Shown: piece by piece, positions 4,223-11,500 of the stretch
How the letters are laid out: every line of letters begins with the position of its first letter
Numbering within the stretch: the stretch's first letter is position 1
Source: a virus
DNA: 36,658 nucleotides
IMG/VR virus record: IMGVR_UViG_3300032294_001214
Span: 1-36,658 of that record
Reading direction: 5' to 3' (one strand)
The notes under the pieces: generated by a model
Databases searched by the model: none
The model's input: the letters and a program-made list of their open reading frames with translations, nothing else
Told to the model about the DNA's origin: nothing
Made by a program: the position numbers and the translations under genes

Positions 4223-5263
4223 ATGCCGCGCAACCCGTTTCCCGGTGTGAGCAAGCTGATCGATCGTCACGGCAAGCTCCGCTGGCGGTTCCGCGCGCGG
4301 CATCGCAAAACGATATACTTGCCGGGGGAATATGGCAGCGCGGAGTTTATCGCCGCCTACGAGGCCGCTGCCCGTGGCACCCGACAGGCTGTCGGCGTCG
4401 CCCGCACCATGCCCGGCACGATCGGCATGCTCGTCGCCGCCTATTTCGAAAGCGCCGACTACAAGGTGCTGGCCCTGAACACGCGCCGGCTCTACCGCTA
4501 TCACCTTGAGAGGTTCCGCAAGGCCAATGGCGAAAAGGGATTGTCGCACCTGACTGAGCACGCCCTGCGCGACAAGCTCGATCGCATGGCCGACAAGGCG
4601 GCTACTGCCAATATCTTCCTGAAGGTAATCCGTGCGCTCTGCCGGTTCGCAGTACAGCGCCGCATGATGCGGCACAACCCGGCCACCAACATCAAGCGGA
4701 TGAAGGACAGGACGGACGGCATTCATACCTGGACGAATGCTGAGGTGTCCCGGTTCGAGGCGCGCCACCCTGTCGGCACAAAGGCCAACCTTGCCCTGCG
4801 GCTGCTGCTCTATACGGCGCAGCGGCGATCGGACGTGATCCGCCTCGGGCCGCAGCATGAGCGCGACGGTGTCATTGTCCTGCGCCAGCGCAAGACGGAT
4901 GCGAGGCTTGCCATCCCCATCACGCACGAGCTGCGCGAGGCGATCGACGCCACGCCGTGCGGCCACCTGACTTATCTCGTCACAGAGTTTGGCAAGCCCT
5001 TTACGGATGCGGGTTTCGGGAACTGGTTCCGCGATCGGGCGAACGAGGCGGGGCTCAGGAACTGTAGCGCGCACGGGCTCAGGAAGGCAGCCGCCCGTAT
5101 TCTTGCCGAGGCCGGCCGATCGGCTCACGAGATCATGTCCATCACCGGGCACAAGAGCCTCGCCGAGGTCGAGCGGTACACGCGAGCAGCCGCCCAGGAG
5201 CATCTCGCCCGGGGTGCCATCGGTGCCCTGTCGGGAACGAAACCGGGGCGCAAGCGTGGCTAA
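4223..5263 (+). CDS. int: Tyrosine recombinase / phage integrase
   Basis: A 346-residue site-specific recombinase that would insert and excise the phage at attP/attB. It has an N-terminal arm-binding-like region (1-65), a core-binding SAM-like domain (66-165) and a C-terminal catalytic domain. Catalytic residues are visible in order: Arg201 (TAQRRSDVIRL), Lys224 (RQRKTDARL), His284 and Arg287 (HGLRKAA), His310 (ITGHKS) and the nucleophile Tyr319 (EVERYTRAA). It is last in the plus-strand early operon. Its stop codon lies inside the first of four GGCTAACCT repeats, consistent with attP immediately downstream. A 407-residue frame on the other strand is a shadow. Confidence 0.95.
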   Translation: MPRNPFPGVSKLIDRHGKLRWRFRARHRKTIYLPGEYGSAEFIAAYEAAARGTRQAVGVARTMPGTIGMLVAAYFESADYKVLALNTRRLYRYHLERFRKANGEKGLSHLTEHALRDKLDRMADKAATANIFLKVIRALCRFAVQRRMMRHNPATNIKRMKDRTDGIHTWTNAEVSRFEARHPVGTKANLALRLLLYTAQRRSDVIRLGPQHERDGVIVLRQRKTDARLAIPITHELREAIDATPCGHLTYLVTEFGKPFTDAGFGNWFRDRANEAGLRNCSAHGLRKAAARILAEAGRSAHEIMSITGHKSLAEVERYTRAAAQEHLARGAIGALSGTKPGRKRG

Positions 5264-5305
5264 CCTTTCTAACTTCGTGGCTAACCTTTCCCTTAAGTAA
5301 TTGAA

Positions 5306-5329
5306 AACCAAGAACAAATTTTCTTGGTT
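5306..5329. repeat. Perfect 9-6-9 inverted repeat; candidate integrase core or terminator
   Basis: AACCAAGAA (5306-5314) and TTCTTGGTT (5321-5329) are exact reverse complements around a six-base spacer, CAAATT. This could be a pair of integrase core sites around the crossover region, or a bidirectional AT-rich hairpin ending integrase transcription. It lacks a U-run, which weakens the terminator reading. Confidence 0.55.
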
Positions 5330-5402
5330 GGTGAGCCCAGTTGTAGTGCGGAAAGCCAGCAAAATCATAGGCTTGCGTTGGCTAACCTCGAAAACGAGGC
5401 CA

Positions 5403-5424
5403 TTGAATCCATTGGCAGATTCAA
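5403..5424. repeat. Perfect 7-8-7 inverted repeat in the attP region
   Basis: TTGAATC (5403-5409) and GATTCAA (5418-5424) are exact reverse complements around an eight-base spacer, between the third and fourth GGCTAACCT repeats. It is an alternative candidate for the integrase core. A small CCTCG-AAAA-CGAGG hairpin (5386-5399) overlaps the third repeat just before it. Confidence 0.45.
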
Positions 5425-5472
5425 GATTTGGCTAACCTCTGAGCGCGTAGACTCGTCGCGCTGAAACACAGC

Positions 5473-5532: not shown

Positions 5533-5652
5533 ATGCGTAGAGCTATCGGCTCATTAGCAGCCGCGTTGTATCTTGTCACCGTCCTCGCCCTCGATCTGGC
5601 GATGATGCTCATCATCCTCGCCGGCGTCTTCATCGCGGTGGGCACACCATGA
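5533..5652 (+). CDS. Membrane microprotein, 39 aa
   Basis: A 39-residue frame starts at ATG 5533, seven bases after GAGG. After a short basic N-terminus (MRRAIGS) almost the whole chain is hydrophobic (two runs, LAAALYLVTVLAL and MMLIILAGVFIAV), so it is either one long or two short membrane helices. Its stop overlaps the next ATG in an ATGA junction. It lies between attP and the convergent lysis genes, a usual place for accessory genes expressed by themselves. Function unknown. Confidence 0.5.
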   Translation: MRRAIGSLAAALYLVTVLALDLAMMLIILAGVFIAVGTP

Positions 5653-5837
5653 GCCAACGGATCGTCCTCAAGCGCCCCCGCCACGGCTGGGCTCGCACGC
5701 CTCAAGAGCGGTTCGACGACCGGCTCAACAGCGGGATCGTCGTCTGCCTCGGGCTCTGCTTTTTCGCGGCCGTCTCGATCTCAATGATCGGCATTCTCAT
5801 CACGACGATCGAACACGTGCTGGCTAATTTCAGTTAA
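5649..5837 (+). CDS. Single-pass membrane protein, 62 aa
   Basis: ATG 5649 overlaps the stop of the previous microprotein, so the pair is probably translated together. The first 28 residues are basic and polar (QRIVLKRPRHGWARTPQERF), then one membrane helix (IVVCLGLCFFAAVSISMIGI) and a short tail, which predicts a cytoplasmic N-terminus. The 3' end overlaps the o-spanin gene on the other strand by eight bases. Possible roles for such phage microproteins include superinfection exclusion or lysis control, but nothing in the sequence decides. Confidence 0.55.
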   Translation: MSQRIVLKRPRHGWARTPQERFDDRLNSGIVVCLGLCFFAAVSISMIGILITTIEHVLANFS

Positions 5838-8580: not shown

Positions 8581-11500
8581 GACGCGCGATACCCAACCAA
8601 CGTGCATTTCCAGGCGGTGGCGCCTGTCGCCGTTGTTGTCGAAGCTGTCGCCGAACAGAACACGCCGAGCAGCGAGCCGCTGGCGATGACGAGCGAGGTG
8701 TCGCTCGGCGTTGCCGTCTGCAGGATCGTGTTGTTTGCCGTCGTGAATCCGCTTGTCACCAATGATGTGCCCCCCGTGACGCCGCCGCCGTTGCTGGTTG
8801 CAGCCGCGCAGCCGAACCGCACGTCCATTGTCAGCGTTACGCCGGAGGCGTTGCGCCCAAGGGTGCTTTGAATTTGCGTAACCGTGAAGGCATAGGGCAA
8901 ATGAATCGAGGCTTTCGACGCGAGCGTTGTGCTGAGAACAATAAAACTCAGTTCAGGGCTGATGGCCAGCGTGATGAACTCAAGGGGCCGCACGTCGCGC
9001 ATGAGTACGCGGCGCGCCGATGTCGTCGAGTTATCGAACGTCAGGATCGAATCCGCGTTCGCGTCCGGGGCCGTGTCTTGCGTCAGGTTCGCAACTCCGC
9101 GCAGGAGCTGCTCTGTCGTTACGTATGTTGCTTTGCTGCCCGTTGCCGCCGAGGTGTCCCACAGCGGCAGCCGATCATCGGTGGCCGGGGCAGCGTTCAA
9201 AGCGACACCGCCACCGAACAGGTTCTCAGTTGACAGGCGCCTGTTGGCGGTGCCGTCGTGCAGCAGCAGCACCTGGCTGCCGGTGTGCGTCGTGTTGGCC
9301 GTTAAGCCGGTGATGTCGATCGCCGCCGTGATGTTGCCGCCCGCGCCCGCATCGGTGAGCGTGATGCCGCTGCCGGCCGTGAGATACCGCTCGTTGGTGA
9401 GATCCGCATCGGCCGTGCCACCGACGAGGATGTAACGGGATGCGGCAGGGGCGCCCCCGCCCCCACCGCCGCCCGCGCCCCACGCAAGCCCGTTTGGCGC
9501 CGCCGAGCTTGCCGTCAGAACCTGTCCGTCCGTGCCAACCGTCAGCGAGGCCCATGTGGCCGTCGCCGTGCCGACGAGGATCGTACCCTTTGCCGGCGTA
9601 ATCGCAGCCGCATCCGTAAGCCTGGCGCTGTAGGCCTGCACGTCGGTGCCAATCGCAACGCCGAGGTTGGTGCGTGCCGCCGCATTGGTGGCTGATCCCA
9701 GGAACGTGAATATGTTGGCGCTCGAGGTGAGCGCTTCGGGCGCGCCGGCCAAAGCCGTCGAGCGGGCAAGGATCTGGTATTGATTGATATTCGCCATCTT
9801 GGCCAGGGTGACAGCGCCGTCCGCGATGCCGGCAGTCGCGATCGTGCCGAAGCCGATTGTCGAGCCGCTTTCGCGAAGCACGGCGCCACTGGCTGCCGTT
9901 GCTGCAATGTCGCCGAGGTTGCCTGTCGAGTTGGCCGAGCGGCCCACGACGCTGAGCGCGCCGCCCTGGCGCAGTTGCGTGTTGCCGATCCCGTTCGCGA
10001 CAATGTTGGCCGTGACGACGCCGCCCGTCGCCCAGTCCCAGCTCACGGTTGCGCTGTCGGTGACGACACGCTCAGCCGACAGGCCTGCGTCGGCGGTACG
10101 TACAAGATAGTCAACCGTCGTCGGGGCCCCGCCGCCCGTGGCCGCCGCCCAGCGCACGCCGGCGCCCGACGCACTGTCAGCCTGCAGGAACTGCCCGTCG
10201 GTGCCGACGCCAACCGTCGTCCAGGCGGTGCCGTTCGCGGCGATGATGTTGCCCTTGGTGCGCGTCGTGCCGGCAAGATCCGAGAGCTGGCTGGCAAAGG
10301 CCTGCACGTTCGTGCCGATTGCGAGGCCCAGCGTCGTGCGCGCCGTCCCGGCATCGACGTCGTCGATGAGCGAGCGGCCGAAAGCCGTGCAAGTAACTTC
10401 CTCGACAACACCGGCACCGGCCGTCGAGCGGCCGAGCAGCCTGTCGGTGGCCGATACGTTCTGAAACTTCGCGTAGGTGACGGCGCTGTCGGCGATGCCG
10501 GCCGTGGCAATGGTGCCAAAGCCGATCGTCGATCCGCTCTCACGAAGCACCGCCCCGCTTGCCGCTGTTGCGGCAATGTCGGCCACGTTGCCCGCGCTGT
10601 TGGCCGAGCGGCCGATCAGCGACAGGGCCCCGCCCTGCCTGAGCTGCGTGTTGCCCACGCTGTTGGTGACGATGTTCGCGCGCGCCTGCCCCGCCGTCGC
10701 CCAGTCGAACGCGATCGTCGCCGTGTCCGTCACCACCCGCTCGGCGCTGAGCGATCCGTTCGCCGTGCGCACCAGGTAGTCTGCATCTGTCGGCGCGCCG
10801 CCACCGCCGCCGGCAACCGTCGCCCAGAACCCATCGCCGCGCAAATACTTGCCCTCGTCGCCGGCAGCCGGCTGCGGCACCAAACCCTTGACGCCAGCCG
10901 AGCCGGCAGTTGCCCCGGTGAAGCCCGGCAGGATCACATTGACTTGCGCCCCGTTGAGATCGGACGGCGCCCCGGTGCCTGCCCCGTTCTCGCGCCCCTT
11001 GATCGTCGCCTGCGCCATCGACGCCATCAGCGTATTGTTGACACTGCCAGGGCTCAGGCTTGCGCCCTCGAGCTGGGCCAGCGTCGACGTTGACACCGTG
11101 GGCTGGCCGCTCGAGTCGAACGCCAGCACCTTGTTCGCACGTGTGATTGAGCTTGGCAGGTCGTTGACAACCGCATCGGTGCGCCGGGCGCGCAGCACCC
11201 GATCGAGCGCGTCGGCCGTGTACTGCGTACCGATCGCCAGCGTGTCGAGCCCGCCTTCGAGCGTTGCCGGCACGATCGTCGAGCCCGACGTGTAGTCGGC
11301 CGTCTGCAGGGCGGGCGTGTTGCGGATGATGTGGATCTGCTGCGTCGCCGGCGGCGGGGTGACGAACGTGATTGTCGCGCTCGAAAAGCCGCCGGTGCCG
11401 TCGTCGGTGATGGCCGTGATGGCGTAATTCGCCGGCGTCGCCTGCACGCTTTCGGCGCCTGTCGCGATCGTGCGCAGGATGACGATCAGATCGCTCGACG

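Follow-up and report, generated by a model that had tools for sequence, protein, structure and literature searches.

The closest described systems are phage lambda, the Sinorhizobium prophage phi2LM21 (MF614627) and the Agrobacterium phage Rivra (PV764937). In the Int-IHF system of lambda, integrase arm sites flank the core of attP with IHF-type sites lying between arms and core, Int has distinct arm- and core-binding domains, and the attB is not a tRNA gene. The att of phi2LM21 has been reported from sequence to lie in tRNA-Phe (PMC5537653). We find that it comprises 17 nt of tRNA-Phe(GAA), that the IHF consensus occurs without mismatch at +34, that P' sites lie near +53 and +102, and that the arm motif is GTCCAG-like. 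Positions of this kind are counted throughout from the TGG of the core (antisense CCA), taken as 0. Rivra has a core, ATGGTGGGCCCGGAGGG, that resembles a tRNA 3' end, a perfect IHF consensus upstream of it and three direct P-arm copies of the motif GGCTAACC.

We have studied the putative attachment site of an uncultivated phage in an IMG/VR virus record of 36,658 bp (64.5% GC), the whole of which was analyzed and is referred to below as the window. Its plan is like that of phi2LM21, whose integrase is 45% identical to that of the window, but its core probably corresponds to tRNA-Lys and its arm motif is different. The arm motif is that of Rivra, although in Rivra the P-side spacing is shorter and the integrase is only 31% identical. 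With lambda the window has in common the flanking arm sites, the intervening IHF-type sites and, in the structural model of its integrase, the division of arm and core binding between domains. It differs from lambda in its tRNA 3'-end core and in having two arm sites on each side; no Xis gene was identified among the ORFs near the site. We conclude, with a probability of about 0.88, that a temperate podovirus-like phage has its attP at positions 5257-5437 and would use the lambda mechanism, with a core at 5329-5343 corresponding to the 3' end of tRNA-Lys(UUU).

Results

The integrase and the organization of the site

The sites, their spacings, their conservation with the integrase and the identity of the relatives' cores to tRNA 3' ends are read from sequence. 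The putative features in the window are as follows.

4223-5263, + strand: tyrosine integrase, 346 aa, PF00589
5257-5265, + strand: P1 arm site, TGGCTAACC, at -72 from the core; contains the integrase stop codon
5278-5286, + strand: P2 arm site, TGGCTAACC, at -51; oriented like P1, reversed in the relative G001 and in most others
5294-5306, - strand: IHF-like site, TAAGTAATTGAAA, at -35; one mismatch to YAANNNNTTGATW, perfect in G001
5306-5329: inverted repeat IR1, perfect 9-6-9; just upstream of the core, with a 1-nt overlap
5329-5343, - strand: attP core, TGGTGAGCCCAGTTG; antisense 3' end of a tRNA-Lys(UUU)-like gene (CAACTGGGCTCACCA)
5363-5375, + strand: IHF-like site, AATCATAGGCTTG, at +34; one mismatch to WATCAANNNNTTR
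5379-5387, + strand: P'1 arm site, TGGCTAACC, at +50
5402-5424: ATTGAATCCATTG element at +73, together with IR2; four relatives have counterparts of the element, not of the perfect inverted repeat
5403-5424: inverted repeat IR2, perfect 7-8-7, TTGAATC-cattggca-GATTCAA; between P'1 and P'2
5429-5437, + strand: P'2 arm site, TGGCTAACC, at +100

The integrase matches PF00589 with E = 6.5e-18 and has the conserved residues R202, K224, H284, R287 and Y319. Its reading frame ends ...GGC TAA, with the stop codon at 5261-5263. The structural model has a mean pLDDT of 88. Residues 9-50 adopt a beta-beta-beta-alpha fold (pLDDT about 80-86) and are predicted to form a separate N-terminal arm-binding domain, which is followed by a helical core-binding domain and the catalytic domain. 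The best matches to the model in the PDB are full-length lambda integrase (1z1b and 5j0n), aligned over the full length, and the sequence identity to lambda Int is only about 19-20%. Related integrases in viral and bacterial contigs are 34-50% identical to that of the window, and the named organisms among them are nearly all Alphaproteobacteria. One Falsigemmobacter contig (L025, NZ_RRAZ01000028.1, 48.9 kb) encodes two such integrases (G011:C23:9119 and 46901).

Podovirus-type portal, terminase and tail proteins are encoded on the minus strand of the window. A search for terminal repeats of the 36,658-bp window found none. Comparison of the ORFs near the site with PHROGs gave a weak match to an Rz-like spanin just beyond the attP region and no Xis. 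Since phage-type genes flank the site on both sides, we read it as an attP rather than a prophage end. At 5533-5837 lie two short ORFs, of 39 and 62 aa, which overlap, contain hydrophobic stretches and are conserved in G001; adjoining the weak spanin match, they are possible lysis genes. Elsewhere, a 213-nt direct repeat (9798-10010 and 10467-10679, 75% identical) falls within a large minus-strand ORF and likely corresponds to repeated domains of a virion protein.

The core coincides with a tRNA 3' end in related prophages

In nearly all of the relatives a pair of short repeats directly follows the int stop codon, with an antisense tRNA 3' end about 50 nt further on. The second end of the prophage was located in six of them (G006, G009, G010, G013, G014 and G016). 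In these the attL/attR duplication consists of 15-24 nt of the tRNA 3' end, the two copies lying 9.6-44 kb apart, and further copies of the arm motif are usually found beyond the distal one. For the integrase family, then, the sequence duplicated at the att sites comes from the 3' end of a tRNA gene, and this extends to the window by homology and core similarity only. Because the att duplications of prophages with related integrases are tRNA 3' ends, we place the core of the window at 5329-5343, and the point of crossover is most likely this 15-nt copy of the end of a tRNA-Lys gene.

These results bear on the original prediction from the window's sequence. Its placing of an attP beside the tyrosine integrase is supported by the relatives. 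It had proposed either inverted repeat as the core, and this was not borne out, the duplicated core being a tRNA 3' end in the six prophages. The prophage ends of relatives, which it proposed to map, do lie in the corresponding position, where they coincide with the end of the tRNA. The statement that no tRNA-like segment is evident was wrong, in view of the antisense tRNA-Lys(UUU)-like end at 5329-5343.

The closest relative is G001 (IMGVR_UViG_3300034198_010576), a circular phage cut within the integrase with an 87-bp terminal repeat, whose integrase is 66% identical to that of the window. The longest identical intergenic runs between the two are the 15-mer at 5329-5343 and 5372-5386 at P'1, followed by P'2. 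G001 shares with the window the core 15-mer, the P' arms and an int stop codon inside P1 (TTGGCTAAC in G001). It differs in that its P2 is inverted with respect to P1 and that both of its IHF-like sites are perfect.

Identity of the tRNA

ARAGORN finds no tRNA in the window, since the window contains the 3' end alone. Among 397 genomes of one proteobacterial order, tRNA-type 3' ends differing from the core by one base (CAACCGGGCTCACCA or CATCTGGGCTCACCA) occur in 12, and wherever a full gene adjoins such an end, ARAGORN calls it tRNA-Lys(UUU). A search with TGGTGAGCCCAGTTG found the exact core within a tRNA in none of 385 genomes of one class. With longer tRNA patterns, the exact 3' end was found in none of 103 and 8 genomes of two families, none of 398 of the phylum and none of the 397 of the order. 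The sole exact match to the core 16-mer in the order (L058) is not within a tRNA and was discarded. None of the viral contigs searched has the core linked to a tRNA T-arm. Two contigs contain the core 16-mer within one common sequence that has neither arm motif nor tRNA at the match, and the exact tandem arm pattern occurs in one contig, where there are just two copies and nothing suggests kinship; all were rejected. As no exact tRNA match was found in the genome sets searched, the assignment to tRNA-Lys is drawn from the one-mismatch homologues.

It follows that the core might be the 3' end of a tRNA species other than Lys(UUU), or that the host might lie beyond the sampled order, as the failure of every genome set searched to provide an exact match would allow. 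We consider this unlikely, given that each one-mismatch end with a full gene adjoining belongs to tRNA-Lys(UUU), and that the tRNA-Lys(UUU) gene of one genome (G686) holds what is left of an integrase, with 47% identity over 79 aa to that of the window. The remnant stops about 70 nt short of the antisense 3' end of that gene.

The G686 remnant is carried by a degraded 3.6-kb element in the tRNA-Lys(UUU) gene (L113, 2000-5760), the att duplication of which is longer, about 60 nt, reaching as far as the anticodon loop. Three further genomes (G564, G431 and G587; L112, L114-L116) have duplicated 3' portions of tRNA-Lys(UUU) from the anticodon loop on. This suggests that the tRNA-Lys(UUU) gene is a hot spot for integration in that order.

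The inverted repeat adjoining the core

Both inverted repeats are perfect, 9-6-9 and 7-8-7, as had been noted. Folded as RNA they are unexceptional (z = -1.7 for IR1 and -1.5 for IR2), and we rejected them as terminators, there being no terminator-like call and an ordinary folding energy.

If IR1 (5306-5329) were the core, it would provide paired core sites for the integrase, with an attB outside tRNA genes. Its perfect 9-6-9 symmetry and its contact with the 15-mer are in keeping with this, as is an inverted repeat at the same place in G001, with the different arms CCCAAAA/TTTTGGG. However, in relatives attL and attR are identical over the tRNA 3' end, immediately downstream of this position, and no evident counterpart of IR1 is seen; in G001 the 15-mer is conserved but the sequence of IR1 is not. 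We therefore regard IR1 as a very improbable core. An inverted repeat is found at this position in both the window and G001 (L049), the arms differing by mutually compensating changes. Since the symmetry is kept with different arms, IR1 may be under selection, judging from these two examples.

The arm sites

The sequence GGCTAACCT occurs four times in the 36,658 bp, all on the + strand, at 5258, 5279, 5380 and 5430. The expected number is 0.05, and four copies were reached in 0 of 100 shuffles. Slightly longer motifs are common to P1 and P2 (CGTGGCTAACCTTTC) and to P'1 and P'2 (TTGGCTAACCTC). The four copies in one direction had been noted at just these places, and none is found elsewhere in the window; the stop codon of the integrase indeed lies in the first. 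Most relatives tested have a P' arm in direct orientation at +50 or an inverted one at +53/54, and for the most part another at +100-103. The recurrence of these positions in related phages supports the earlier view of the repeats as arm-type sites, and the proposed check of whether they are conserved with the integrase, run on the relatives, found that they are.

Between genes, short direct repeats could also serve as repressor operators or plasmid-type iterons. Across many phages, however, the repeats hold a fixed position with respect to the tRNA core, and their sequence varies with the integrase, making such a role highly improbable. As for a core at IR2 (5403-5424), its perfect 7-8-7 symmetry is outweighed by its location between P'1 and P'2, off the core position in every relative, and by the lack of a perfect inverted repeat in the relatives, which have in common just ATTGAANNNNTTR at +73, and it can be dismissed.

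An element like ATTGAANNNNTTR at 5402-5414 of the window (+73) has similar counterparts in G001, G009, G014 and G016. It is possibly a further bending site or a site for Xis.

IHF-like sites between the arms and the core

The IHF consensus scored was WATCAANNNNTTR, found in the IHF literature, and its reverse YAANNNNTTGATW was used for the P side. Exactly at +34, a match to WATCAANNNNTTR is present in 7 of 15 relatives when one mismatch is allowed, and in 11 of 15 when two are allowed; the maxima in 1000 shuffles were 1 and 3, respectively. The match at +34 is perfect in G001, G009, G014 and phi2LM21. On the P side, 8 of 26 match YAANNNNTTGATW at -36 to -34 with at most one mismatch, and in many relatives the P-side site is absent or shifted. 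The relatives share common ancestry, so the counts at +34 and at -36 to -34 are not independent events; in other respects, alignment of their flanks by eye is difficult. The window has candidate IHF sites between the arms and the core, at positions enriched across the relatives.

Orientation of P2

P2 has the same direction as P1 in the window and a few relatives; in G001 and most of the others it is inverted. Parsimony on the integrase tree gives seven changes of the P2 label, with at least four forced by well-supported branches. The labels were assigned by repeat search and reading of the sequences, and as some of them depend on weak repeats (those of phi2LM21, RcapNL, L026 and L014) the number of switches is approximate. 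The difference between the window and G001 is plain in the sequence. P2, and also P'1, would then have kept a near-fixed position through repeated reversal, and we suggest tentatively, at somewhat less than even odds, that the arm-binding domain reads either orientation in one conserved assembly.

Discussion

From the organization of the site we infer the binding of proteins, the use of IHF, the exact point of crossover and the host tRNA. The N-terminal domain of the integrase would bind the arm sites P1, P2, P'1 and P'2, and contact with the core (5329-5343) would be made by the catalytic domains. Bending at -35 and +34, by IHF or another host protein that bends DNA in a similar way, would bring the arms onto the core. 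Strand exchange would occur within the 15 bp that would match a tRNA-Lys(UUU) 3' end exactly. After integration the P arm and core would lie beside the body of the tRNA and, as in the relatives, the tRNA 3' end would be left intact.

On this reading the site is an ordinary lambda-type attP, with a tRNA 3' end for its core. Its sole unusual feature is the repeated flipping of P2 among the relatives. With this analysis the crossover of an uncultivated phage is confined to 15 bp, and tRNA-Lys is indicated as its gene of attachment, together with a likely host lineage. The ruler of -72/-51, -35, core, +34, +50 and +100 lets attP, attL and attR be read in many alphaproteobacterial phages, and the repeated reversal of an arm site poses a testable question on how heterobivalent integrases use their arm DNA.
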